Source: Diabrotica undecimpunctata (lineage: Eukaryota; Arthropoda; Insecta; Coleoptera; Chrysomelidae). Taken from it: 64,000 nucleotides of DNA. The stretch lies in assembly GCF_040954645.1 (NCBI RefSeq), contig NC_092809.1, positions 127,895,914 through 127,959,913 of the forward strand. Reading direction: 5' to 3'. Position 1 is the first letter of the stretch. Each line of letters starts with the position of its first letter. The translations under genes were made by a program, and so were the position numbers. Below the pieces are notes generated by a model. That model was not told the DNA's origin. It ran no database searches and saw only the letters and a program-made list of their open reading frames with translations. Below are positions 271 to 62,727 of this stretch, in pieces.

Positions 271-3027
271 TTATATCAGTACTGAGTATACTGGTGTGTA
301 CTCTAGTTCTAACTGTGCATTTAAAGTTTCAGCTGTGTGATTTTTCAGAGATTTTAATATTTCTAAATGTTCCAGGTTATTGAGTAATAAGCCTTTGTTG
401 CAAGTATGGAGGATTGTGAAATCAGTTTGTGGATCAAAGTTATGGTTTTTATGTCGGATATGTTGGGAGAAGTGTGATTGACCCGATGTTGGCCGTTCTA
501 TATATCTAAGATGTTCTTTTAGTCTAATATTGAAGGATCTGAAGGTTCTACCAATATAGCATGCATTGCAGGTATGGCAGCTCAACTTATACACTCCGCT
601 ATACTCAAGTGAGTTACGTTTATCCTTGTTATTCAAGAAAGTCAATCCTAAATTAGAGGCAGTTTTAAAAGAGATGTTTATGTAGTCATCAAAGATTTTT
701 GCTATTTTATAAGAAAGATCACCTATGTATGTTAAAGATCTGTAAGGTTTTTGTTCCACCATTTCATTAGAATGTTGTGTATATACTTGGTGTTCTAACA
801 TTCTATTAGTCTTTTTATGTAAAATTTTATTCACTAGATTAATGGAATAACCATTATTTATAGCTATTTGTTGAATAATTTTTAATTCTTTATTGAATGA
901 TGTTAAAGTTAATGGTAACGATATTAAACGATTAATGTAACTGTAGAATGCTGCCATTTTGTGTTGAATAGGATGGTGTGAGTCAGCTGGTATAACTGTA
1001 CCAGTATGCGTTGGCTTTCTATAAATATCAAGGATAATCGTGCTATTATTTAATGTTAATGTTAAATCTAAGAAATTTAAGCTATTTGAGTCATCTTGAA
1101 TCTCCAGTGTAAATTTTATGGTGTGGTGTAATTGATTAAGGTAATCTAAGAAAGAGTGTAGATTATCAAGAGAACCACCCCATACAATAAATGTGTCATC
1201 TACGTATCTCGAATAGAACTTGATGTAATTAGTAAAAGGATTGTTATTCAATATTTTGTTAGATTCAAGATCATTCAAAAAGATATCTGCAAGAATTGGG
1301 GATAGAGGGGAACCCATTGCTAGTCCATCTGGTTGCACAAATGTCTCGTTATTGAAATTGAAAAAATTCTGGCTCAGGCAAATATTCAAAAGCTCTGCAT
1401 ATTCAATTATTTGATTAGGAGAGTAATTGTTATTCCACAAGTCCATAGTAATTATACTAATGACTTCTTGTGTTGGGATATTTGTAAATAGATTAGTGAT
1501 ATCTAAGGATATCAGTATGTCACCTGTGGAAAACTTTAATGAAGTTAATTTATTGGCTAAACTTAGATTATTATTAACTATATATTCAAATTTATTATTG
1601 TATAATGTTTTAAGGAATTGATTTAAATATGTTGCTAAGGCAAATGTTGGAGAGTTCGAAAAAGATACTACAGGTCTGATTGGGATGTCTTCGAAAATGT
1701 TTGTTTTATGTATTTTCAATAGCCCATATAATCGGGGAATAATTGATTTGTTTGGTGAAAGTTTCTTTTTGGTGATAGCATCTAGTACTTCATTACTGTC
1801 ATTAATTAAGGTTTTAACTTTATTGGTAAAAGATTTAATATTGACTGCTTTAGTTATGAACTTATTGTCATCAATGAATTTCAATACTTTTTTAGTGTAA
1901 TCAGAGGTATTCAAGACAACTACTGTATTACCTTTATCTGCTTTTGTTATTGTTAGATTATTCTCTGTTATTTTTTGATTAATGGATTTTATGACATGTT
2001 TGAAGTTGTTATTAGATCTGAAAGCAGCTCTGTGGTTATGAGTATTGTTTGATTTTACCATATCTTTTCTAAATAAAACCTTTAGTTTATCCCTGATTTC
2101 TTCTGTGTGGTCATTCGGGACTAATGTTAAGATACTTTCACATTCTGCTCCAAGTAACTCTAGATTTTTTAGGTGTTGTTTTCTAGAATCTAGGGGGGGG
2201 TTAAATTTAAATCCCTTTTGGAGCAAGTTGGTCTCATTGGTTGAAAACACTGTTGTTGAGTAGTTAATGAATGGTGTATAAAAGGGGTGTTGTGCAGAGG
2301 TTGTTGAGTAATCGCCTGGGTCAGAAGAAAAAGATGTATTTGGACTAGGGGTATGATTGGGTGTCTCGTTCAGACTAGAAGTAGAAAAGGAAGAAGAAAA
2401 GTTATTCATTATTTGTTCTGAAAGATTTGAAACATCTATAGAATTATTATAAGAGCTAGGTATATGTGAAGAATTGTGATTAAGATTATTTGATGTTAGG
2501 TCATTATTAGTTTGTGTACTTAAAATTCTATTGTTATTGTGTTGGTTAGTTTTGTACTTTAAATTATTGATTTTTGTACTTGATTTTCTGTACTGTCTCC
2601 TCCTAAGGTAATCCAATGTACCATGCAGATTGCACATCCACTCATCGAATTCCTGTGGGGTCAATTTTATGTGTAAATTGTCATATGTCGCCTTCAGTTG
2701 TAAATCTATGGTGTAAATTGTTTGGTATATTTTCCTAATCTCGTCTCTGATGATGGATCTTCCCAAAATGTTTATCTGTTTTACTGTTGCTGTGGTGAAA
2801 TTGAATTCTCTAAGTCTACCTTTAACGTAGCTAGGTAATAGATTGAACCTAAGACATTGGTTGTTAAAAAATATCTTTGATTTTTGTAGCATTTTTTTGA
2901 TGTTAAGTTCTTTGTACCGGTGTAGCAAAAAAGCTAGTCTAGCATTATTCAAATCATGAATGTGTTGCTTGTGTGAGTCCATTTCAAAAGGTGAAAGAAA
3001 TAATAAGTTAGACTTACTCACAATCAA
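271..3027 (-). CDS. Penelope-like element polyprotein: reverse transcriptase + GIY-YIG endonuclease (intact)
   Basis: An uninterrupted 918-codon ORF. Residues about 1-350 are low-complexity Asn/Ser-rich and include the N-terminal PLE region. The RT domain spans roughly 355-640, with KADKGNTVVV near 362, SLDITNLFTNIP near 507, GSPLSP near 572 and the catalytic YVDD at 608-611. The C-terminal GIY-YIG nuclease starts with GVYKL at about 811, has a Cys-rich linker (CHTCNAC) and YIG at 824-826, a conserved Arg in the following helix (NIRLKEH) and a downstream Glu. This architecture is specific to PLEs, which copy themselves by target-primed reverse transcription with this nuclease. The length fits the family and there are no frameshifts or stops, so the copy may be competent. 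The nearest minus-strand Met (3027) lies about 15 bases from the hammerhead motif upstream. Confidence 0.93.
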   Translation of the reverse strand: MIVSKSNLLFLSPFEMDSHKQHIHDLNNARLAFLLHRYKELNIKKMLQKSKIFFNNQCLRFNLLPSYVKGRLREFNFTTATVKQINILGRSIIRDEIRKIYQTIYTIDLQLKATYDNLHIKLTPQEFDEWMCNLHGTLDYLRRRQYRKSSTKINNLKYKTNQHNNNRILSTQTNNDLTSNNLNHNSSHIPSSYNNSIDVSNLSEQIMNNFSSSFSTSSLNETPNHTPSPNTSFSSDPGDYSTTSAQHPFYTPFINYSTTVFSTNETNLLQKGFKFNPPLDSRKQHLKNLELLGAECESILTLVPNDHTEEIRDKLKVLFRKDMVKSNNTHNHRAAFRSNNNFKHVIKSINQKITENNLTITKADKGNTVVVLNTSDYTKKVLKFIDDNKFITKAVNIKSFTNKVKTLINDSNEVLDAITKKKLSPNKSIIPRLYGLLKIHKTNIFEDIPIRPVVSFSNSPTFALATYLNQFLKTLYNNKFEYIVNNNLSLANKLTSLKFSTGDILISLDITNLFTNIPTQEVISIITMDLWNNNYSPNQIIEYAELLNICLSQNFFNFNNETFVQPDGLAMGSPLSPILADIFLNDLESNKILNNNPFTNYIKFYSRYVDDTFIVWGGSLDNLHSFLDYLNQLHHTIKFTLEIQDDSNSLNFLDLTLTLNNSTIILDIYRKPTHTGTVIPADSHHPIQHKMAAFYSYINRLISLPLTLTSFNKELKIIQQIAINNGYSINLVNKILHKKTNRMLEHQVYTQHSNEMVEQKPYRSLTYIGDLSYKIAKIFDDYINISFKTASNLGLTFLNNKDKRNSLEYSGVYKLSCHTCNACYIGRTFRSFNIRLKEHLRYIERPTSGQSHFSQHIRHKNHNFDPQTDFTILHTCNKGLLLNNLEHLEILKSLKNHTAETLNAQLELEYTPVYSVLI

Positions 3028-5261: not shown

Positions 5262-7400
5262 TTATATCAGTACTGAGTATACTGGTGTGTACTCTAGTTC
5301 TAACTGTGCATTTAAAGTTTCAGCTGTGTGATTTTTCAGAGATTTTAATATTTCTAAATGTTCCAGGTTATTGAGTAATAAGCCTTTGTTGCAAGTATGG
5401 AGGATTGTGAAATCAGTTTGTGGATCAAAGTTATGGTTTTTATGTCGGATATGTTGGGAGAAGTGTGATTGACCCGATGTTGGCCGTTCTATATATCTAA
5501 GATGTTCTTTTAGTCTAATATTGAAGGATCTGAAGGTTCTACCAATATAGCATGCATTGCAGGTATGGCAGCTCAACTTATACACTCCGCTATACTCAAG
5601 TGAGTTACGTTTATCCTTGTTATTCAAGAAAGTCAATCCTAAATTAGAGGCAGTTTTAAAAGAGATGTTTATGTAGTCATCAAAGATTTTTGCTATTTTA
5701 TAAGAAAGATCACCTATGTATGTTAAAGATCTGTAAGGTTTTTGTTCCACCATTTCATTAGAATGTTGTGTATATACTTGGTGTTCTAACATTCTATTAG
5801 TCTTTTTATGTAAAATTTTATTCACTAGATTAATGGAATAACCATTATTTATAGCTATTTGTTGAATAATTTTTAATTCTTTATTGAATGATGTTAAAGT
5901 TAATGGTAACGATATTAAACGATTAATGTAACTGTAGAATGCTGCCATTTTGTGTTGAATAGGATGGTGTGAGTCAGCTGGTATAACTGTACCAGTATGC
6001 GTTGGCTTTCTATAAATATCAAGGATAATCGTGCTATTATTTAATGTTAATGTTAAATCTAAGAAATTTAAGCTATTTGAGTCATCTTGAATCTCCAGTG
6101 TAAATTTTATGGTGTGGTGTAATTGATTAAGGTAATCTAAGAAAGAGTGTAGATTATCAAGAGAACCACCCCATACAATAAATGTGTCATCTACGTATCT
6201 CGAATAGAACTTGATGTAATTAGTAAAAGGATTGTTATTCAATATTTTGTTAGATTCAAGATCATTCAAAAAGATATCTGCAAGAATTGGGGATAGAGGG
6301 GAACCCATTGCTAGTCCATCTGGTTGCACAAATGTCTCGTTATTGAAATTGAAAAAATTCTGGCTCAGGCAAATATTCAAAAGCTCTGCATATTCAATTA
6401 TTTGATTAGGAGAGTAATTGTTATTCCACAAGTCCATAGTAATTATACTAATGACTTCTTGTGTTGGGATATTTGTAAATAGATTAGTGATATCTAAGGA
6501 TATCAGTATGTCACCTGTGGAAAACTTTAATGAAGTTAATTTATTGGCTAAACTTAGATTATTATTAACTATATATTCAAATTTATTATTGTATAATGTT
6601 TTAAGGAATTGATTTAAATATGTTGCTAAGGCAAATGTTGGAGAGTTCGAAAAAGATACTACAGGTCTGATTGGGATGTCTTCGAAAATGTTTGTTTTAT
6701 GTATTTTCAATAGCCCATATAATCGGGGAATAATTGATTTGTTTGGTGAAAGTTTCTTTTTGGTGATAGCATCTAGTACTTCATTACTGTCATTAATTAA
6801 GGTTTTAACTTTATTGGTAAAAGATTTAATATTGACTGCTTTAGTTATGAACTTATTGTCATCAATGAATTTCAATACTTTTTTAGTGTAATCAGAGGTA
6901 TTCAAGACAACTACTGTATTACCTTTATCTGCTTTTGTTATTGTTAGATTATTCTCTGTTATTTTTTGATTAATGGATTTTATGACATGTTTGAAGTTGT
7001 TATTAGATCTGAAAGCAGCTCTGTGGTTATGAGTATTGTTTGATTTTACCATATCTTTTCTAAATAAAACCTTTAGTTTATCCCTGATTTCTTCTGTGTG
7101 GTCATTCGGGACTAATGTTAAGATACTTTCACATTCTGCTCCAAGTAACTCTAGATTTTTTAGGTGTTGTTTTCTAGAATCTAGGGGGGGGTTAAATTTA
7201 AATCCCTTTTGGAGCAAGTTGGTCTCATTGGTTGAAAACACTGTTGTTGAGTAGTTAATGAATGGTGTATAAAAGGGGTGTTGTGCAGAGGTTGTTGAGT
7301 AATCGCCTGGGTCAGAAGAAAAAGATGTATTTGGACTAGGGGTATGATTGGGTGTCTCGTTCAGACTAGAAGTAGAAAAGGAAGAAGAAAAGTTATTCAT
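5262..7400 (-). pseudogene. 5'-truncated second copy of PLE RT/GIY-YIG ORF
   Basis: The 712 codons from Met207 of the full-length protein to the same stop are identical in sequence to the copy at 271-3027, including YVDD and the GIY-YIG residues. The reading frame continues upstream to about 7650 but lacks the first roughly 130 codons, where the unit breaks into the inverted fragment. A 54-bp (18-codon) direct duplication, 7531-7584 and 7585-7638, lies just before the break and is absent from the other copy. The RT and nuclease domains are complete, so a shortened protein could in principle be made, but the normal N-terminus is missing. Confidence 0.88.
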
Positions 7401-15582: not shown

Positions 15583-18500
15583 TTATATTAGCTGAAATAA
15601 ACTTGTTTCTTTTAAAAATCTAAGAACACTGTCAAAACGGTTTGGAACACTGAGAATGTCTTTTAGATTTCCTTTTAGGTTGTGCTTGTTTCTGGAAGAG
15701 TCATACTGGCAGCAGTCCACTATCACGTGTTTGATGGAAAGGACGTTATTACAGTAGTGGCATACTGGAGGGTTTTCTGATGCCATAAGGTATCCATGTG
15801 TGAGACGTGTATGCCCTATTCGTAGTCGGTGAATAACTGATTTTTCTTTCCTGTTCATAGAGGAGATATTGACGCGAGATAAGTTGGGCTAAACTTCATG
15901 CAGCTTAGTTTTTGTTTTACTCCACAGGTCCGCCCATGAGCTGAGGATTTTTTGTTTTACCAATATTTTAAGATCCGTATGGATTTGGACCTCTTGGAAG
16001 GCTATGTCAGAAGAACATGCTGCTTTAGCGGCTTGGTCTGCTTTTTCGTTTCCCAATATACCAACATGAGATGGAGTCCAGATCATTACGACTTTTATGT
16101 TAGCAGAATATAGTTGGTTACAGATAGTGTGGATTTCCTGGACTAGTGGGTTTTTCGAGAAAATGCATCTTATTGAATAAATCGAGGAAAGTGCAAATGG
16201 CGATTTTTATGCTTTCATTTGAAGTAGGACGGATTGAAGTCTTTAATGCTTGGAGTATTCCATATAATTCTGCGGTATAGATACTACAACTTTTAGGCAA
16301 TCGCACAGAGTTTATTATCGTCGTCAGTGTGGACACAGCAGAGCCACAACAGTCTTCATTCTTGGACGCATCGGTGTATAAAATTTCATCAAATTGTGTT
16401 AAGTTAAGGATGTTTTGGAAGGATTTTCTAAGGATTAAGTTTGGGGTTTCTGTTTTGTCGAATCTGCATAAATCAGTATTGAATATTGGTAGATTGTGCA
16501 TCCATGGAGCTGTCTTGGGGGTATAAATAGAAGTAGTATTGGAGAGGTTGATGGAATCTAATAAAGGAGATAATATTTGTGGTAATGTGAGAGACTGATT
16601 GGAAGCGTTTACTGGGGGAGGTTCTATGGGATTGATTAGATTTATTACCGGGTTACTTGGGTTTGCTGATATTCTTACAAAGTATGAAAGTAGAAGCTGC
16701 TGCCTTCTTAGATGGAGTGGTGGCTCTGAAGATTCAACGCACAGACTTTCGGCGGGGCTTGATTTGAAAACACCGAGGCATAGTCGTAGGGATGTATTTT
16801 GAATCGTGTTTAGAGACTTTAGTAGGGAGCTACTAGATGTCATATAAAGAATACTGCCATAATCTAGCTTAGAGCGAATTAACGCTCTATATATTTTAAG
16901 AAGAGATTCTTCGTCAGCTCCCCAAGAAAAGCTAGCAAGAGATTTAAGTAAATTGATTCTTTGGGTACAGTTTCCTTTAAGTTTCTGAATATGCTGTCTC
17001 CAGATAAGCTTTTTATCAAAGGTGATACCAAGAAGTGTCAAATAATTAACTGTTTGTAAACGAAGTCCGTTTAGAGTTATAGAGGGTGGATTAGGTTTAT
17101 GCTTTTTGGTAAAGTGAATTACTTTGGATTTAGGAGCTGAAAACACAAATCCAGCACGCGTGGACTAGGTGCCTATTTTGTTTATTGTGTTTTGTAGCAA
17201 AGTGCTGGTGGTAGCTGTGACTCTGCCTCGGCAGTATAATATAATATCATCAGCATATATCGAGTACCTGACTGGTGGTTCTATATATGAGGAAAAATCA
17301 TTCATGCTAAGTAAAAATCAGGTAGTGCTTAAGACTGAGCCCTGAGGCAAACCGTTGTCCAAAGCGTGTGGTTTTGATATTTTTCCATTTGTTAATACTC
17401 TAAAATATCGACTTGTTAAAAAATTTTTTAAAAATAAATAAATGTTACCAGTTAAATTATATTCCGTTAATTTTCTTAGAATTAGAGGTCTTTGTACAGT
17501 GTCGAAGGCACTTTGGATATCTAAAGTTACTGCTATGACTTCGCTTCTATTCGAAAATGCATTAACAATGTCAGTATGTAGTGTGACCAGGTTATCTATT
17601 GTACTTCGATTTGATCTGAAACCTGTTTGGAATGGGTCAAGGATATTATTTCTTTCTAGATACCATAGTAAGCGTTTATTGACCATCTTTTCTAACAGTT
17701 TACATAGTGAACAAGTGAGAGAAATTGGTCTATATGATTTTAGAAGATTTGGAGATGAGTCATTCTTTTTAATAGGAATTGTAGTCGCTTGTCGCCATAA
17801 CGTTGGGAACTGGTTTTGAGACCAGATCTTATTATACAACTCTAACAGTTTGAGATGTGTGTCTGGATGGAGATTTTTTAAGAATATTGATGGGATATCG
17901 TCAGGACCGGCTGCTGAGTTTTTCAATGAAGATATGGGTTCGTTTAATTCTAGGAGATTAAAAGGAAGATTCAAAGAGCTGGTGTTAAAAAATATTTTGG
18001 GGCTGGAAATGTTGGTATCTGAGTTATTGGAAAGATTCGGAATATTTGACTTATCTGAAAAGTGAGAGGCAAAGATATCTGCACTATGTTGATCATCGGT
18101 AACTGTATGATCCTGCAGGGAGATGGCGGCTATTTTGCTGGATGTATTATGACCTTTCATACGTCTTATCTTTGACCACATTTGCGCCGGAGAAGTATCT
18201 TTTGTGATTGAACTAACGTATTGATTCCATGAGGATTTCTTACTTTCTTTTAAAATACGCCTAGAATTGGCCCTAAGTTTTTTAAAATTTATTAAATCCG
18301 TGGTGGTACGGGTCTTCCGGAATTTATTTAATGCTTTTTTGCATTGTTTGACAGCTATTTTGCACGACTCATTCCACCACGGAACAGGTTTCTTGGAAGG
18401 ATCAATCGCGCATTTACCAATACATTCCTCAGCAGATTCAGTTAAACAATTATTTAATAGTTTTACATCTGTATCTATATCATTGTTAAAAAGTAATTCA

Positions 18501-19105
18501 TTGGTTTTTCCGTTAACAGTGATTCTGAAAAGATCCCAGTTTGCTTGAGTGATTTTCCATTTTGTTATAATTCTTGAGGGCATTTTTGACTGGTCAGAGA
18601 TAAGAATAGGAAAATGATTACTATCATAGAGACTGTTTAATGTGTACCATGAAAGTAAAAGAAATATTCCGGGATTACAGAAATATAAATCTATGAAAGA
18701 GAAACTACCTGATTGGATGTGAAAGTATGTACTACTTCCTGAATTTAGTAAGTTTATATTTACGTTATTTAGGAAATTTTCGATTGTTTTACCTCTTCCA
18801 AATGTGTTTTCGGATCCCCACATAGTATTATGTGCATTAAAGTCGAGGTTTGTGTTTAGCGGAAATTCTTTATGGAAAATATCAGTGGAAACAAAAATTG
18901 ATGCTCCGCCACTGGCACGAAGTTGGGTAGTTCGAATATAGTGGTAACCTGTATAATTTTTATGTTGTCCGGAATATTTATCAGTGAAGTTTGTTTCTTG
19001 TAGGCATAGAAAGTCAGGAGAAGACTCAGATATGAGCTGTTCAAGGCGTGGACGACGGGGATAAAATCCGTCACAATTCCATTGTGTCAGTGTGAAGGTT
19101 GAAAT
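15583..19105 (-). pseudogene. ORF2 of I-like LINE: APE endonuclease-RT-RNase H (frameshifted)
   Basis: The frame overlaps the end of ORF1. The endonuclease has TLTQWNCDGFYPRRPRLEQL and FLCLQETNF, then joins directly to DFNAHNTMWGS: about 60 residues of the nuclease core are missing in frame. RT has YRPISLTCSLCKLLEKMV, GFRSNRSTIDNL, LDIQSAFDTV, GLPQGSVLS and, after a frameshift near 17318, YADDIILYC at about 17255. A TAG near 17165 precedes the thumb region (16118-17146). RNase H shows ILYTDASKNEDCCGSAV and IYTAELYGILQAL, then, after a break near 16110, IWTPSHVGILGNEKADQAA. The Cys/His tail (CHYCNNVLSIKHVIVDCC) ends at 15583. It is not functional. Confidence 0.87.
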
Positions 19106-20568
19106 TAATATGTAGAGTGTTTGGATGTTTGCGAGGTTTGTGAACTATCAGACAGGTATTCTTTATCACAAGCATCCTGGGAATTATCCAGACTGTTTAT
19201 ACTTTCAGAATCATCTGTTGCAGAATGTATTTTAGTTTTAATTTTTTTAATTAAGCGTGTAATTCTGATTTTTGTAGACCTATCTTTAAAATTAGGGTTT
19301 ATTGATTGCAAAGTTAAAATGAGTGATTTAATATCTGTTGTGAATTTAAATGCTTCTGAGACAGGGTCACAGCTGCCGTAAGCGTTCTCGATAAAGGCAA
19401 TTATATTATCAGGAGGAACTGCAAATGCTTCTGGGTTTTGTTTATAGGCTTCGTGTATTGCTTGCTTGGAGTCAGTGGATAGACTGGGGTCGAGAGAAGA
19501 ACTACGTTTTCGTTTCTTTTTTGTGTTGGAGGTGCTAGAGGAACTAGGAACTGTTTGTTTGGGAGGAAACATAGTTTGTTCTGTTGCAGGGTTTTCCCCA
19601 GATTGAAGGGTCTTATCGCTTATAGATGATACAGATGAGCGTGGCCTTTTCTGTGAAAGATGAGAACTTAAACATAGTTTATCTGACTTTTCAGATATTG
19701 TATCATTTTCGCAATTCTCTGGGTAAGAAGACAAATAAAATAGATTTGTTTGGAAGGGAGATGATTCAGAATGAGATGGAAATTGTGTATTCTGTTGCTG
19801 TGACGTTGATTCGGTGGGGGGATTTGGGAGGACATGGGAAACAGTAGGATTTTCAGATGATAAGTTGTCAGATGAAGTATTGGGACAATTAGAAGCAACA
19901 TGTCCCGATTGTTTGCATAAGAAACATTCCATTTTGTCCGTAGACAGAAAAATTCTATTATCATTGCCTTCAAAAAAAATTAACAAGGAGGTGTGAAGCT
20001 CAAAATTATCAGAGGGAGGAAAAATATATACTTGACGGCGGAAGCTAAGTATGTGGGGGTATTCATCACCTGGAATGCCCGCTTTGAGAAAGGACACGGG
20101 GGAGGCTATTTGGAAACCAAGACTTTTCACTGCATTTTCGGCCAGTTCATGGGGAATGTAAGGAGAGATGTTCGAAATTAATATTCTTTTTGTTGGGGAG
20201 ACAAGTTTACGAATACTTAAAGTAAGGCGTCCGATTTGAACTATTGGATGGGATTTCAGAAGTTGATCAACGAGATTTGAGTTCACTAGATATATGCAGA
20301 TCCTATTGTTAGATATTCTGGATGCAAAGGAAATATTTTTTGGTCCGATGATGTCACCAATGGCTTTAACGTAGTCTAGAAGTTTAAGGTTTTCTTCTGC
20401 GTGAAGAACTATCGCCTGTTCTTTTTTTGGAAAAGATGGTTTCGGTGTAGATTTTGCAGCGGTTACGTATGAATGAGGTGTAGTTGCTGGAATGTTGTTT
20501 GTAGCAGTTTGAAGGGCCATTGTTAAGGTAGAAACTGTAGGAGTATTGTTTATATTTGTACTGTCCAT
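19105..20568 (-). CDS. ORF1 (gag-like) of I-like LINE
   Basis: An open 487-codon frame. Residues about 125-230 hold the nucleic-acid-binding core (PTKRILISNISPYIPHELAE near 125) and one complete CCHC knuckle, Cys215-x2-Cys218-x4-His223-x4-Cys228. The C-terminal half is Ser/Pro-rich with a basic stretch (KKKRKR). ORF1 proteins of this type coat the LINE RNA in the transposition complex. The stop at 19105 overlaps the ORF2 frame by a few codons. This ORF is intact although ORF2 is broken. Confidence 0.85.
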   Translation of the reverse strand: MDSTNINNTPTVSTLTMALQTATNNIPATTPHSYVTAAKSTPKPSFPKKEQAIVLHAEENLKLLDYVKAIGDIIGPKNISFASRISNNRICIYLVNSNLVDQLLKSHPIVQIGRLTLSIRKLVSPTKRILISNISPYIPHELAENAVKSLGFQIASPVSFLKAGIPGDEYPHILSFRRQVYIFPPSDNFELHTSLLIFFEGNDNRIFLSTDKMECFLCKQSGHVASNCPNTSSDNLSSENPTVSHVLPNPPTESTSQQQNTQFPSHSESSPFQTNLFYLSSYPENCENDTISEKSDKLCLSSHLSQKRPRSSVSSISDKTLQSGENPATEQTMFPPKQTVPSSSSTSNTKKKRKRSSSLDPSLSTDSKQAIHEAYKQNPEAFAVPPDNIIAFIENAYGSCDPVSEAFKFTTDIKSLILTLQSINPNFKDRSTKIRITRLIKKIKTKIHSATDDSESINSLDNSQDACDKEYLSDSSQTSQTSKHSTY

Positions 20569-45667: not shown

Positions 45668-46722
45668 TCAAAATAGATTTTCGAAATGGAACCCTGCAGC
45701 CTGTACACATTTTTGTTGCCGAATTGTTAATTGACGTATTAAATTACGGATACTCTGGGGATCGTTTCTAATAGTATTACAACAATGTATAATTCTATCA
45801 ATTAATTGTTGTCGGTTATTAATATTCACTGCGTAAACTAGTTGCTTTAATCGTCCCCAAATATGGTAATCAACGGAATTGAAATCAGGGGATCTTGAAG
45901 GCCACGAAATAGAACCTGCACGTCCTATTCACCTGTTGCCATAAACATTATTGAGATGTTGTCTCACTGCCAGTAAAAAGTGTGGGGGTGCCCCATCATG
46001 CTGAAAATACATCGGATAGCAACGTTCGCGTTGGCAAGCAAATTCGACAAAATATTTTGTAGAAAGTTCAAATAGACCTGCCCTGTTAAAGGACCATCAA
46101 AAAAGTGAGGACCTACTAATTGGTTATTTATGACACCAATCCACACGTTAACCGAAAACCTTAACTGAGAACGACGTTCTCGAATAGCATGGGGATTTTC
46201 TTCTGCCCACACATGTGAATTTCGTGAATTATTTATCCCGTCTCTGGTAAATTGGGCTTCATCTGTAAATAGTGTCCTGTATAGCGTTGGTCGATTATTG
46301 TTAATCCACCTACAAAATTTCAACCTATCGATCTCATCTCCAGCATGTAGTCGCTAAACCATTTGAATGTGATATGGGTATAGATTATTTTTTTGTAAGA
46401 CTCTACTTACTTTTGATTGAGTAACATGAGTAACATTGAGTTCTCGACTTACTTGTCTAGTGCTTATTGTAGGGTTCATAGTAACGGCGTCCATAATGTC
46501 ATCTTCCTGCGCTTCATCTACATGTCGCTCTGTTGTTCCACTAGGAAAAGTGCCATTTTCTCGCAAATAATTAAAAACTGGCCCAAATGTTGGATGGTTG
46601 GGAGTTCGACGATTAGGAAATCTCATGCGATATTCTCTACTAGCAGCCCTACCATTCCCATTACAGAATCCATAAACAAATATTATGTCTGCATATTCTG
46701 TGGTCGAAAACTGATGTGGCAT
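45668..46722 (-). pseudogene. Mariner-like transposase (lightly damaged)
   Basis: The start MPHQFSTTEYADIIFVYG opens the N-terminal HTH region also seen in the transposase at 13.5 kb. Catalytic blocks are LFTDEAQF (46255), then after a frameshift near 46020 FQHDGAPPHFLLAVRQHLNN, and SRSPDFNSVDYHIWG (45880). All three Asp positions survive. Damage is one stop after YPYHIQMV, one frameshift and one TAG in YGNR*IGR. The C-terminus QKCVQAAGFHFENLF is complete. This is the best-preserved mariner in the window. Confidence 0.87.
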
Positions 46723-47424
46723 TTTGAACGAAAAGAACAAAAGCTCTACCAAAACTAACACAATGTACTTAACGTAGATATGACAGAAGAAATATGTATT
46801 CTTGTACACATAAATAACAATTGATAATGACAATAATGAAAATGGGTATAAAATATCAATAAACGTCAAACGGTCAACGCCAACCTTCATTTTAAACTTT
46901 TTTAGATTTATTTTTATTTAGTACAGTTGATGCAATGTATTATTATTTGACATAAAATTTTAATCATTTATAATCAACAAAAACTAACACATACAAGAGG
47001 TTTGACTTTTTAATCAATTTAATTTATTATTTATCGAAAATAATGCCCAATACGATCTATGAGTAAAAATTTAAAATTGAAAAACAATTGATTCTATCGT
47101 AGAGATAATACAAAGTGACAGTAAAGATGTTAATTTTTTACGTATTAGATTATGTTGTAGGAACTCATTTTAATTAAAATGTTTGAAATTTATAACATTT
47201 GTTTAAATTAATACCTTATAATTTGATACTTCATTATGGTTGTTCTATTTTTGGTAAGATTTGATCGTTCACTAAAAATTTAATAAAAGTGCGACAACAT
47301 TGTCGCATATGTCGTTTTCATTGGCTATTTATGTAGTTTGAAAATCACTTATTGCATTTTAAAAAAAATTTATACAGGGTGTTATATTTAATACGAATCC
47401 CTAAATTAATTTTTCCAAAGCCAG

Positions 47425-49907: not shown

Positions 49908-51065
49908 AATGGCACGACATTAGTGCATTTAGTCCAGTAGTCAAGTCCTACTACAGCCAATAAAATTGCCTCGTACTAAAAGATGATCTTCTTTACATAA
50001 CGTTTGAGAAAAATAATAGTACAGAATCTAAGTTTAAGTTGATTGTACCTAAAAGTAAAAGGTCAGGAGTATTACGTCAGTTGCATGACGGTGCATCAGG
50101 CGGACACTTTGGTATTTTAAAGACTTTGCAAAAGGTTCAAGAATGGTTATATTGATAAGGTAAAAATTATATAAGAATATGATGCTAGAAATATGCACTA
50201 TGTGCCACCAGTAATGATACAGTTGATAAAAAGAGGGCACCCATGAAACAGTACAATGTTGGTAGTCCTATGGAAAGAGTAGCAGTAGACATTGCAAGTT
50301 CATTTCTAAAAATGGATGCCGAAAATGAATATATTGCATCCATGGATTATTTAACGAAACGGACTGGGGCCTATGGTATACAAAATCAAGAAGCGGCTAC
50401 CGTGAGAAAGATACTTGGTTAAGAATTCTTCAGCCGATTTGGTGGTCTTACCAATTCCCTTCCAAAGCGTTTGTTAATCAATGTATGGCAATAATACCAT
50501 AATGATACCTTTGCATCCTCAGTCAGGGAGAATGGTCGACGGGATAAACCGAATAATAAGCAAACACCTGTGCCAAGTTGTATCCAAACATCAGAGAGAT
50601 TAAGACCAGCATATTCATTTATTAATAATGGTCTACCGATCTGCCGTAAATGATGATAGAGGCTAGACCCCAACCTCCTTGATGTTGGGTCGTAAAGTTC
50701 ATTTACCCTGCGATCTAGACCTTTGGAAGATTGTGTTGCAAGCGAAGAATATGTCGATTACTTGAAGTTAAGAATGAACAAACTTCTTGGCCGGCAACAC
50801 ATCAGATAGCTAGTGACAGAATTAAAGACCAAAATGATTCTCGATGCAAGAATAAAAGCTTTGAAGTAGGTGATCTTGTCTGGCTTTATAATCCACAACG
50901 TCGTTGAAAGTTGTTTCCTAAACTACAAAGATAACGGGAAGGTCCGTATAAAATTAAATAGAGAATAAATGACGGAACATACGGAATTAAGAAGTTAGCA
51001 AAAGGTAAACTAAAAGTGGTTCACATAAATTGTCTTGCACCTTATGATAGCTTAAAAGAAAGAGA
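49908..51065 (+). pseudogene. Gypsy integrase (copy 1)
   Basis: The linker (WHDISAFSPVVKSYY...) leads into the HHCC zinc region (LRQLHDGASGGHFGILKTLQ, CTMC). The core has the first catalytic Asp (MERVAVDIASSF) and the second (MDYLTKR). The third acidic block reads LHPQSGRMVDGINR, with Asp where Glu is usual. A C-terminal SH3-like region (FEVGDLVWLYNPQRR) follows. Frameshifts near 50150, 50430 and 50760 and several stops inactivate it. The frame then runs on into the accessory domain. Confidence 0.83.
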
Positions 51066-51433
51066 AGAAGCATGAACTCTTCAATATGAAATTAAAGACA
51101 ACTAACAATCAAGTTTTAATAAATTGATGTCAAATTTCGCAAAAACAAAGAGTGCTAGATTTAGCTTTACCACAGAATTTAACAAAATATTTTTAATGAT
51201 CATCCGGAAAATGTGTCCATAGCACAATGTGTTGCCCAAGATCTAAAGATATCGAGGTGGCTAAAGGAATCTCGTCCATATGTAATAACAAAGCATGCTT
51301 GAAGGGATCGTGTTCTTTAAAGTCAGTAGACTTTTATTTCTTCTTGAGTGGTTTATGCAGAGATGGGGAGTCCTGCAGATTCCGCCATCTTAAGCTTTTA
51401 TATAGAGTTACTGATCGGGACGTTCAAATCTAA
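51066..51433 (+). pseudogene. Macrodomain + CCCH-finger extension of Gypsy Pol, copy 1 (mostly deleted)
   Basis: After integrase the same frame passes two stops (TGA in EA*TLQYE, TAA in KDN*QSS) and reads ENVSIAQCVAQDLK, the first strand and loop of a macrodomain. A frameshift leads to VAKGISSICNNK. Most of the macrodomain is then deleted, and the frame continues into a CCCH finger, YFFLSGLCRDGESCRFRH, whose first Cys is Phe, ending with a stop at 51433. The matching, longer region in copy 2 allows the identification. Confidence 0.68.
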
Positions 51434-51881
51434 GAGGGTATCAGTGTAACGCAAAAGCTTATTTTCTACGTATCCCGTAAAATAATCGCAATTTGGCAGA
51501 AATATGACTTATATTCGATAATCTCCGTGATGTTCGAAATAGGGACCGAGGCCTTCCAGAACATATGGCAAAGCCGGAATTCGAAATAGTGTTCTTGGCA
51601 TTCTAGAACATACGGCGTGGTAACAAATAGATATGTAATAATCGATGATATTCTAGAATAATGAATTTATGTATATAGAAAGAGTTTAGTTCAATTTTTA
51701 AAGACAATACCGCGTTGTTAATAAATATTTTATATAAATTGGAACAGTCGTTTTATTTAAAATCTTTATTGTTTGTAACTTCTCTGTTCTGCATATATAG
51801 GTGTTGTTAATCAGTAAGTTTACACAGATATGGAGGACTCACGTCAAATCAGGGTTTTAAAAGCGGCGATCTAATCATAAT

Positions 51882-58385: not shown

Positions 58386-59494
58386 GATGTCACATGTTTC
58401 GACGAGAAATTAAGTATATATGCTTCTTTTTCTTCTTCTTTTTATATAGACATGAATCTGTCTGTTTTTCAATGTGCCTCCAGTTAGTTGTCGTTTCATC
58501 GTTTTCGTGGTCTTTCTACCGATCGTCTTCTTATTGGGGAACCATCTCTTGCCGTCTTTACTACTCTATTTGTTGTCATTCGGCTTATATGATCGTTCCA
58601 TTCTACTCTTCGATTTCTTATTGCATCTACGTCGTATATCTGTACTTCTAGCTCTGTCCCATAATGGCTTACCATCATTTTTTCTGCCAAGTGTTTTCAT
58701 CTCTGCTGTTTCTAACATCCTTTTTGTTCTCTGTGTTAAGTCTTGATTCTGCGGCGTATGTCATTATTGGTCTGATGACTGTTTTGTAAATTCTGCCTTT
58801 TGTTTCTTTCCCGATATTTTTATTTCTCCATATTTTTTCATTGCGGCAGCCTGCGGCTCTGTTTACTATATTTACTTGTTCTTCATTCAGTTTCGAGATT
58901 TCTGTAGCTAGATAATGTGATGCCTAGATATTTAAACTCCATCACTTGTTCTATTATCTGACCTTTCAACTCCAATTTACATCTAATTAAATTTGCTTTA
59001 TAACCAAACATTTTGTCTTTTTTGGCAAAATTAACATGTTAAATTTTCTGGTGGTTTTATTAAATTGGTGCAGCATACGTTGTAAATCATCTTCATTTTG
59101 AGAGAGTAGTATTGCGTCGTCTGCATAGCAGATTATTTTAAGTGGTTTTTCTCCCATTTGGTATCCTTTTTTAGATCTTACTTTTTTTAATATTTCATCC
59201 ATAATCAGGTTGAACAATAGAGGACTCAGGGAATCTTCCTGTCTTATCCCATTTCCAGCTTCAATAGGTTCGGTTAGTTCTTCTTCTACTTTTGCTTTTT
59301 TTGTGTTGTATTGGTAGATATTTTCGATTGTTTTGATTATTCCTAGAAATATCTCTCTTGCGTACAGTAAGTGGACAACGTCTTTTAATTTGACCCGGTC
59401 AACTGCCTTCGTAAGGTCCACGAGACATATATATGCCGGTTTGTTGTATTCTATTAAGTGTATATTGTGTAAGTAAATAAGGGACATATTGTGT
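58386..59494 (-). mobile_element. 5'-truncated RTE-like LINE nested in Gypsy RT
   Basis: The (GAA)n-type tail appears as CTTCTTTTTCTTCTTC on the plus strand near 58422. The minus strand encodes RT palm to C-terminus: NKPAYICLVDLTKAVDRVKL (catalytic Asp kept), GNGIRQEDSLSPLLFNLIMD, KIICYADDAILLSQNEDDL (59115) and LELKGQIIEQVMEFKYLGI, ending RNRRVEWNDHISRM and RRRSVERPRKR. The first 166 codons (58987-59487) are open; the rest is frameshifted. Gypsy RT resumes at about 59495 (NDPEKISAIKD). Confidence 0.85.
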
Positions 59495-60029: not shown

Positions 60030-60723
60030 AAAAGACTATTGGATTGGATGCGTCGAGGTGAGAAGCCTTTAGAAAAGATAATCTTTTTATGGAACCTTTA
60101 AAAACGATGATGGTACATAATCTAATAAGCTTCAGTTGATTTTACCTAAAAGTTAAGTGTCACAAATATTGCGTTAATTGCATGACGATGCATCAGATGC
60201 ATGACACTTAGGTATTACGAAGAATCTGCAAAAGATTCGAGAACGGTTCTATTGGGTAAACTGTAAAGATGATGTAAGAAGATGTTACCGAAAATGTGAA
60301 CTGTAAGAAACCAGTAATGGTCCAGTTATTAAAAAGAGGGTACCCAAGAAACAGTATAATGTAGGTTGTCCTCTGCAAAGAGTAGCAATCGACATTGTAG
60401 GTCAATTTCCAGAAATGGATGATGATAATAAATATATCCTGGTATTTATGGGTTATTTTACAAAATGAACTAAGACCTATCTGATACCAAATCAAGAATT
60501 AGTGACATAATTAAAAATTTAAATGATTCTCGATGCAAGAATAATAGCTTTGAAAAAACGTAATCTTGTCTGGCTTTATTATCCAAAAAGACGTCAAGGC
60601 ATGTCTCCTATACAAAGAAAATGGGAAGATACGTATGAGATTCAACAAAAGATAAATGTTGTTCATGTTAATCACCTTGCACCGTATGCTGATTTAAATG
60701 AAACAAAAGAAGCACAAACTCTT
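60030..60723 (+). pseudogene. Gypsy integrase (copy 2)
   Basis: The HHCC region (LHDDASDA, then HLGITKNLQKIRERFYW) precedes the core with first Asp kept (RVAIDIVGQFPEMDDDNKYI) and second changed to Gly (FMGYFTK). The segment carrying the third acidic residue is deleted after IPNQE. The C-terminal domain (KRNLVWLYYPKRRQGMSPIQ, then INVVHVNHLAPYADLNET) runs straight in frame into the accessory region. Confidence 0.83.
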
Positions 60724-61311
60724 TAGCATCAGATCAAAGATTACCGACGACCCAGTTTTAATGAATTTGTGTCACATTACGCAGAAATAAAGAGCGCGAA
60801 ATTCGGCTTGACCACAGAAGTTCAGCAGGATCTTTTTAGTGTTCCGTAAAAAGTCTTTATAGCCCACTGTTTTGCCCAAGACCTCGATATGACTAAAGGA
60901 ATCTCGTTCGTTTGTAATAAAAAGTTGGGTAGCTTAGACGAGTTGAAAAATCAGCAGCATAAACTTAGAAAAGTACAGCGTATATGGTGACCAGGATACG
61001 AAAACATAGAGCATGATCTAACTAATTTAAAGAAAATCGTTTGTAATTATGACATCAAGAATTTGGCTTTAGCAAAAATAGGCCATGCACTAAAAACTCT
61101 GGATTGAAAGATAGTGGAAAACATGATTGTAGTGATCTATAGAGAAACTGGCGAACGAATTGCTATGTGTTGCATTAACCAAAAGATATCGGGTCCCTCA
61201 AAGACAGTAAAATGTTATTTTTTCTGGAGGGGTTCAGCCAGAACTGAAGAGTCCTGTAGATTTTCCCATCCTGGGCCTTCATATATAGTTGTTGATCTAG
61301 ACGTTTAGATC
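60724..61311 (+). pseudogene. Macrodomain (OARD1/TARG1-like) and CCCH finger fused to Gypsy Pol, copy 2
   Basis: In the same frame as integrase, after one TAG at 60724, come FNEFVSHYAEIKSAKFGLTT and a macrodomain: DLFSVP, then a stop, VFIAHCFAQDLDMTKGISFV, CNKKLGSLDELKNQQHKLRK, PGYENIEHDLTNLKKIVC, LALAKIGHALKTLD, then a stop where Trp is expected, and IVENMIVVIYRETGERIAM. Order and spacing follow OARD1/TARG1-type ADP-ribose-binding macrodomains (AHC..D..M..GI, G...EL..Q, YE.L...L..+K, IG..L..L.W..V..MI), apart from a short deletion before PGYEN. The Asp expected in the IG..LD loop is Lys here. A CCCH-type finger follows, CYFFWRGSARTEESCRFSH, its second Cys replaced by Ala. It ends 15 bases before the purine tract. 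In viruses and cells such macrodomains bind or remove ADP-ribose; the role here is inferred. Confidence 0.75.
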
Positions 61312-61325
61312 TAAGAGGGGAGTAG

Positions 61326-61540
61326 TGTGACAAAAAATAATGTCATTGACTTTCCCATATAATGGGTCACAATTCAGCAATAGGTAACATTATATAGTTG
61401 TGAAAGTGACAATTTTATTTTAAAAACAATCATTACAATATTTTGATTCACCAGAGCACGGGAAGTTTGAAGATAATAAAGTGCTTTAAATAAATAGGTT
61501 ATATAAATTAAAACTGCTCGTTTTATTTAAAATCATTACA
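61326..61540 (+). repeat. 3' LTR of Gypsy copy 2
   Basis: Starts TGTGACAA right after the purine tract AAGAGGGGAGTAG and ends ATTACA. It shares TCGTTTTATTTAAAATC with the LTR of copy 1 near its 3' end. No 5' LTR is in the window to confirm the limits. Confidence 0.6.
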
Positions 61541-62727
61541 ATATTATAGAATAATTATCTGGTCAAACTGATGTCTTTTTTGTTTTGACGAACAATCTTA
61601 TATACTAAAACGCTAAGCCCTTTTCTTGTCCACCACTTTACTCAAAAACCATATTAGATAATTAAAATATTTTTTCGGAATATTATTAGTATTACGTATG
61701 AGATTGTCAAAATATACTTTTGGTACAAAAATTCACTTCCGGTTTTGAGATGACCGGAATTTAAAAATTACTTTAAGTTTTAGACCCCACAATGTATATA
61801 TGGATGGAAAGGTCTCGTCGAGACGAATCTAAATATGTATTTCCGGTTGCGATCCGACACCGGAAGTGACCCGAAACGCGCATAAAACGTCAAGATAGAG
61901 CAAATCTGACACCGGATTCGTGATCAGCATGCAAAATTAACTGCTAAATGATATCCATGTCGACATTTGATGAACTAAAAATTGCATTCCGGTTTTGAGG
62001 TCGACCTCCGGTTTCGTTTTTATTAGTCAAATCAATAGAGAATTCAACGTAGAGTTCAAAAATGTAAGTTCACGAAATTATCATTTATAGTTTTTGAGTT
62101 ATTGATAAAAATATTTTTACTTAATTTTTCTCGCAAAATAAAAATTTCATTTAAAAAACTCGATGTCGAGTTGGTCCGCTAGTGTAACCATATTTCATTA
62201 TATAGCTCGTATATTTTGTATTATACCTTACTCGAATTAATGTATATACCTAGCTTATTTTTGGACTAGCTATATGAAATGTTGTGGAGTTACTTCTTGA
62301 CAGTTTTACATTTATGCCTTCGAATTGAACTGCTTCATATTCTTAGTAACGTACTAACCAAAAAAGTTTCGATACATTGTATAAAATACCCTCATTTCGG
62401 TCGAAAATTCCAAATACACAAGCAAAATAAAACCTTCTGCTTTGGTATTCATATCTTCGGCGCTCGTATAAATTTTCAAAACACCTTTCAACGGCTTTCC
62501 GTCCTTTTACGTATTCGACAAGCACGTGAAGCTTTATAGGAAACCTGGAAACTTGTATGAAAGGCGATAGACTAATATTTGGAAGGTTCTAAAATTCATT
62601 AAATATATCTACATTGGTGTGCGCATTTAGATGGGTTATGAGGATAATCCCGTCAGTGGCGAGTTAAGTGAAAATTGTGACCCGAAATTTAAGCACACGT
62701 CGATTTTAAACAGGATAAACAGCTTAG

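Follow-up and report, generated by a model that had tools for sequence, protein, structure and literature searches.

Behind the integrase of a beetle retrotransposon lies a polyprotein tail that resembles the ADP-ribose hydrolase OARD1/TARG1. We found it in a window of 64,000 nucleotides from Diabrotica undecimpunctata (contig NC_092809.1 of assembly GCF_040954645.1, positions 127,895,914 to 127,959,913, forward strand), which holds two copies of the tail, here called A and B; both are relics. With moderate confidence, we read the tail as the C-terminus of Pol in a likely Ty3/Gypsy family of beetle long terminal repeat (LTR) retrotransposons. In this family, the integrase is continued in frame by an OARD1/TARG1-type macrodomain and a CCCH zinc finger, a predicted ADP-ribose eraser. 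The tail described in the first-pass annotation belongs to copy B, whose frame at 60523-61311 shows no frameshift relative to the protein of its relatives and contains five premature stops (60724, 60847, 60988, 61105 and 61306) ahead of the terminal stop. The order within copy B is integrase tail, linker, macrodomain, CCCH finger, terminal stop with purine tract, and an LTR-like sequence starting with TGTGAC (P numbers denote public relatives, described below):

60094..60498, + strand: copy B integrase relic (zinc-binding domain and part of the core), 75% identical to copy A, whose corresponding stretch matches Integrase_H2C2 (7.2e-9)
60523..60723, + strand: copy B integrase C-terminal tail, weak Integrase_p58_C match (0.0071, below cut-off)
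60727..60810, + strand: copy B linker from integrase tail to macrodomain, resembling P0003, P0008 and P0011
60811..61164, + strand: copy B OARD1/TARG1-type macrodomain, with in-frame stops at 60847, 60988 and 61105
61213..61269, + strand: copy B CCCH finger, second Cys missing
61312..61322, + strand: copy B terminal stop (61312-61314, common to copy A) running into the purine tract, from the sequence
61326..61541, + strand: copy B 3' LTR-like sequence, TGTGAC start, end approximate, from the sequence; likeness to copy A over 73 bases near the 3' end (79%)

The integrase tail of copy B is 42% identical to the relative P0009 over 57 residues, a score equalled by 0 of 100 shuffles. Copy A (49964-51450) lies about 9.7 kb upstream, with a DNA identity to copy B of roughly 67-75%, and is made up as follows:

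49964..50152, + strand: copy A integrase zinc-binding domain, Integrase_H2C2 7.2e-9, above cut-off
50811..51081, + strand: copy A integrase tail, reading frame disrupted, from comparison with copy B
51085..51292, + strand: copy A linker and macrodomain start, middle of the domain deleted, from comparison with copy B
51332..51388, + strand: copy A CCCH finger, first Cys missing, zf_CCCH_4 8e-5 and zf-CCCH 0.0067, both below cut-off
51431..51438, + strand: copy A terminal stop (common to copy B) and purine tract, from the sequence
51445..51777, + strand: copy A 3' LTR-like sequence, TGTAAC start, end approximate, from the sequence

The deletions differ between the two relics: about 420 bases of integrase core present in copy A are missing from copy B (60499-60522 vs 50393-50810). 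Three of the five premature stops of copy B can be checked in copy A, and all three are absent there, among them the one at 60724-60726; the remaining two fall in a stretch lost from copy A, and the public tails that cover them read through. Because the checkable stops are absent from copy A, the public tails are open and the terminal stop is common to both copies, the simplest reading is an ancestor in which a single frame ran from the integrase to the purine tract. The claim of an in-frame extension at the C-terminus of Pol was thus borne out by the agreement of the two window copies and by P0009 and P0011, in which integrase and macrodomain share an open frame.

Of 26 candidates searched with the copy B tail, four proteins matched, each of them from Diabrotica; a profile built from these four then picked out 22 of 2838 candidates at E<=1e-5. 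By our reading, 11 of the 22 would be tails of the element family (P0003-P0012 and P0021) and 11 free-standing OARD1-like proteins. P0005, P0008-P0011 and P0021 were assigned to the family by integrase, finger or purine-tract/LTR sequence shown directly, and P0003, P0004, P0006, P0007 and P0012 by similarity alone. The tails come from beetles of five genera and from one contig of 1,282 bases. Four of the genera are Chrysomelidae, namely Diabrotica (D. virgifera, D. undecimpunctata and D. balteata), Leptinotarsa, Gonioctena and Acanthoscelides, and the fifth, Brassicogethes, belongs to the Nitidulidae. Neither viral contigs nor bacterial and archaeal genome contigs yielded any relative when searched. 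In P0009 (314 residues) and P0011 (270 residues), an Integrase_p58_C domain above cut-off precedes the macrodomain in one open frame; the match in P0009 reaches 3.3e-13, with a Tf2-1-like SH3 match (5.7e-5) below cut-off. P0008, P0010 and P0011 contain macrodomain, finger and the purine-tract/LTR reading, as do P0005 and P0021 from the middle of the macrodomain onwards, so that an open frame reaches the LTR start from the integrase (P0011) or from the linker or macrodomain (P0008 and P0010). These five proteins continue past the finger into an LRRGQCNE-like string (in P0021, LGRGQCDK), the translation of the purine tract and LTR start; copy A, in frame 51400, reads LRGYQCNA. The first-pass annotation placed the tail just before a purine tract and 3' LTR, and a purine tract and a TGTRAC LTR-like start are present at the 3' end of each window copy. 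The finger frame of the window copies stops just short of the string while the relatives read through, so the exact stop differs between branches. P0003-P0005 are annotated in Diabrotica as 'ADP-ribose glycohydrolase OARD1-like' and P0006-P0007 as unnamed products; all look like retrotransposon tails, and P0005 reads on into the purine tract and LTR start despite its annotation.

The 46-residue stop-free piece 60850-60987, searched alone against the PDB, matched only human OARD1 chains (five of five matches up to E 10, best E 7.5e-5), although the adjoining piece 60991-61104 alone had no PDB match. The whole copy B tail, with X at the stops, matched OARD1 at 2.5e-11 and then, weakly, CCCH-type chains (2e5s at 0.015, named muscleblind-like chains from 0.12), in keeping with the OARD1/TARG1-like domain first noted. 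Six pieces (four tail pieces, the integrase tail and the copy A finger) each outscored 100 of 100 of their own shuffles against ten OARD1-like and element proteins that had themselves been found using the tail. P0004 matched OARD1 chains in the PDB at 3.2e-26 to 4.8e-26, the next macrodomain following at 0.12, and the predicted structure of one relative has a TARG1-type macrodomain fold. The CCCH finger fared unevenly: C-x7-C-x5-C-x3-H is complete in P0008, P0011 and P0021, with Pfam zf-CCCH above cut-off in all three, whereas each window copy lacks one zinc ligand (the first Cys in A, the second in B) and the models score below cut-off on copy A.

Human TARG1 catalyses through Lys84 and Asp125, as stated in passages of PMC9411070. 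Lys and Asp occupy this dyad in all 11 OARD1 rows tested. Among the tails from beetles other than Diabrotica (P0008-P0011 and P0021), Lys84 is present in five of five and Asp125 in four of five, P0011 having a short deletion there. Copy B has lost about 17 residues around and including the Lys84 position and has Lys at 125, and copy A lacks the dyad region.

The element is likely a Ty3/Gypsy LTR retrotransposon, a label that we base on the integrase alone. An H2C2 zinc domain (copy A) and a p58-type C-terminal domain (P0009), which we take together to mark Gypsy elements, were both found. No reverse transcriptase (RT) of the element was found beside either window copy, the homology between the copies starts only at the integrase, and the public tails end short of RT. 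No 5' LTR, and hence no paired LTR, was found within the window.

In a tree with 11 OARD1 rows, the seven element macrodomains included group together as a single clade (94/93; 94% of 200 bootstrap trees; the branch is not starred). These 18 rows include no beetle host OARD1, and the partial tails P0005, P0006, P0007, P0012 and P0021 and the fly protein P0023 were omitted. From this clade we infer capture from a cellular OARD1 gene; the more specific idea of capture from a beetle host is unsupported, because the tree samples no beetle host OARD1. Four non-Diabrotica tails keep 34/40, 36/40, 36/40 and 31/38 of the columns conserved in OARD1, against 22/96 to 30/95 of the other columns. In all six pairs of these tails, conserved columns change less than the others (Fisher p<0.005 in five), with divergence at variable columns of 41-51% in five pairs and 23% in the sixth. 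Such retention fits constraint on the macrodomain after its capture.

Several results weigh against our interpretation. None of the 11 element tails scores above the gathering cut-off of Pfam Macro (PF01661), P0008 coming closest with 21.6 vs 22; the model gives no report on the window tail and leaves the window pieces below cut-off or unreported, and the free-standing OARD1 rows P0016 (26.5) and P0018 (33.9) exceed that cut-off. With the cut-off missed, the macrodomain claim is based on OARD1 similarity and fold, so that the profile and structure check suggested in the first-pass annotation was passed in those two respects and failed in the Pfam one. The finger part of the predicted structure is of low confidence (predicted local distance difference test, pLDDT, about 50), and the first Cys of the finger is absent in P0005 and P0010 as well as in copy A; in P0009 the finger is broken off. 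The public proteins could come from spliced gene models; P0009 leaves little room for introns, because its 314 codons lie on a contig of only 1,282 bases. When the tail search was set to a length of 1038 residues, none of 238 candidates was a polyprotein-length relative at E<=1, hence no full-length Pol with the tail was retrieved. Position 84 is Arg in each of the five Diabrotica tails that reach it (read from the alignment in P0003-P0006 and by eye in P0007; P0012 stops short of it), and position 125 is Glu in four of five and Val in P0006, so that the branch to which the window copies belong may have lost TARG1-type catalysis. Diabrotica and window rows also keep fewer OARD1-conserved columns (29/39, 29/40 and 20/33), and the three pairs among two Diabrotica rows and the window copy show no difference in change between conserved and variable columns (p 0.26 to 1). 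Differences between copies A and B, counted at codon positions 1, 2 and 3 in the frame of copy B, show no third-position excess, and no purifying selection can be read from them: 11, 11 and 9 of 52 each in the integrase core; 20/66, 11/67 and 11/67 in the integrase tail; 19, 9 and 19 of 66 each in the macrodomain start; and 13, 18 and 10 of 44 each in the finger. Codon positions free of selection are the expectation for dead copies. The suggested search for selection thus found constraint between the tails of other beetles and none between the window copies or among the Diabrotica and window rows.

If the tail is an eraser, the macrodomain, made as part of Pol, would be packaged at the Gag-Pol level and delivered together with the integrase, and the CCCH finger, by binding RNA, would tether it to the element's nucleic acid. 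There it would remove ADP-ribose laid by the host on the DNA, RNA or proteins of the element, acting either on protein ADP-ribose linked to Glu/Asp or on ADP-ribose attached to nucleic acid. In this way it might counter PARP-type silencing, as the first-pass annotation proposed. TARG1 takes ADP-ribose off protein Glu/Asp and off thymidine in DNA (passages of PMC9411070), which makes the element's complementary DNA (cDNA), RNA or integration complex plausible targets. In the Diabrotica branch, where the dyad has become Arg and, in most tails, Glu, the eraser may have been converted to a binder. The full scenario, in which beetle Gypsy particles carry a stolen TARG1 eraser that is held by the finger and delivered with the integrase, insects defend themselves by attaching ADP-ribose to retrotransposon cDNA or integration complexes, and the Diabrotica branch turned the domain into a binder, is tentative and, taken whole, somewhat unlikely.

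In chromoviruses, integration is directed to marked histones by a chromodomain that lies behind the integrase. The main rival to an eraser, possible though unlikely, is a reader of this sort: a macrodomain that would recognise ADP-ribosylated chromatin or sites of DNA breaks and guide integration there. Its position directly behind the integrase would suit this role, as would the altered dyad of the Diabrotica tails while most OARD1-conserved columns are kept (29/39 and 29/40), whereas the Lys and Asp retained by other beetles would be needless for pure binding. The dyad changes speak for a reader in the Diabrotica branch, and dyad retention elsewhere speaks for an eraser. There is a slim chance that the domain is a passenger, acquired once and carried without use, as the decay of the window copies without third-position excess and the loss of the dyad in one branch would allow; the better-kept conserved columns in six of six non-Diabrotica pairs (five significantly) and the frames that stay open to the LTR start in P0008, P0010 and P0011 argue against it. 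Exaptation seems more improbable still; in that case, the OARD1-like genes of Diabrotica would be retrotransposon tails that the beetle has taken into its own service, and the window copies would be their decayed paralogues. P0003 (180 residues), which is annotated as a gene and has an open macrodomain but no finger, agrees with this, whereas the frame of P0005 carries on into the purine tract and the beginning of the LTR, six differing fragments across three Diabrotica species (P0003-P0007 and P0012) look repeat-like, and the integrase is fused in P0009 and P0011. A chance meeting of a host OARD1 pseudogene with a Gypsy relic would explain why both parts are broken in the window, but the same order recurs in both window copies and in the open frames of other beetles, and P0009 and P0011 have in practice already refuted it.

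The window contains further elements, all on the - strand. Two RT frames (271-3027 and 5262-7400), nearly alike by eye and with RVT_1 at 4.9e-9 in the first, we take from their appearance to be Penelope-like. At 16118-20568, a frame in which a CCHC-like motif can be made out by eye is followed by Exo_endo_phos_2 (4.5e-8) and RT (4.2e-25) in 17318-18823, in three reading frames altogether, presumably a Jockey-like long interspersed nuclear element (LINE). Transposase-like pieces at 45668-46890, with a DUF4817 helix-turn-helix (2e-7) in 46354-46890, are mariner/Tc-like by look, and an RT fragment at 58987-59487 (RVT_1 8.3e-20), LINE-like by look, lies directly upstream of copy B. Two Pfam matches, PAS_6 on the tail (0.014, below cut-off) and DNA_pol_lambd_f on one piece (0.076), were judged to be chance; NCBIfam gave no match, and an Rfam scan of the window gave nothing at the gathering threshold.

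Should the tail be an active eraser, ADP-ribosylation would become a candidate insect host barrier to LTR retrotransposons, and the substrate of the domain would reveal what the host marks. Because the dyad occurs in two natural states, Lys/Asp outside Diabrotica and Arg with mostly Glu within it, natural proteins offer a direct test of the eraser and reader models. Moreover, the OARD1-like genes annotated in Diabrotica are suggested to be retrotransposon tails, which affects gene counts of beetle ADP-ribose enzymes. Retroviral macrodomains are already known from fish, and a macrodomain-bearing Gypsy element, with the layout of Pol, macrodomain and CCCH finger, was the subject of no paper in searches of an open-licence library, as judged on titles and abstract starts. 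In the main text of PMC9503650, a survey of viral nicotinamide adenine dinucleotide (NAD) and ADP-ribose systems, 'retrotransposon', 'Gypsy', 'OARD1' and 'TARG1' occur zero times, and its retrovirus passage concerns 2H domains.

Human TARG1/OARD1 (C6orf130), the terminal ADP-ribose glycohydrolase, is a free-standing cellular enzyme, whereas the domain of the element is part of a fusion, with an integrase before it and a CCCH finger after it; in the window's branch, its dyad is changed. Fish epsilon-like endogenous retroviruses have additional open reading frames for macro domains or CNPase, according to a passage of PMC4977317 citing Basta et al. 2009. They share with the beetle element the state of an LTR retroelement bearing a cellular-type macro domain; as that passage presents them, they are vertebrate retroviruses with additional reading frames, whereas the beetle element is from insects, fused to Pol, of OARD1 type and equipped with a CCCH finger. 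When the P0010 model was compared with a structure library, the best viral match was Kadipiro virus VP8 (40% identity), and further viral matches included several thrips- and insect-associated RNA viruses; insect viruses may have taken up such macrodomains repeatedly. Kadipiro virus VP8 and alphavirus nsP3, whose macrodomain adjoins a zinc-binding domain, are likewise viral ADP-ribose-handling macrodomains, but they belong to RNA viruses and to another polyprotein setting. Chromoviruses, which are Ty3/Gypsy elements, resemble the beetle element in having a reader or effector domain added at the C-terminus of the integrase; where they carry a chromodomain, the beetle element carries a macrodomain and a CCCH finger instead.
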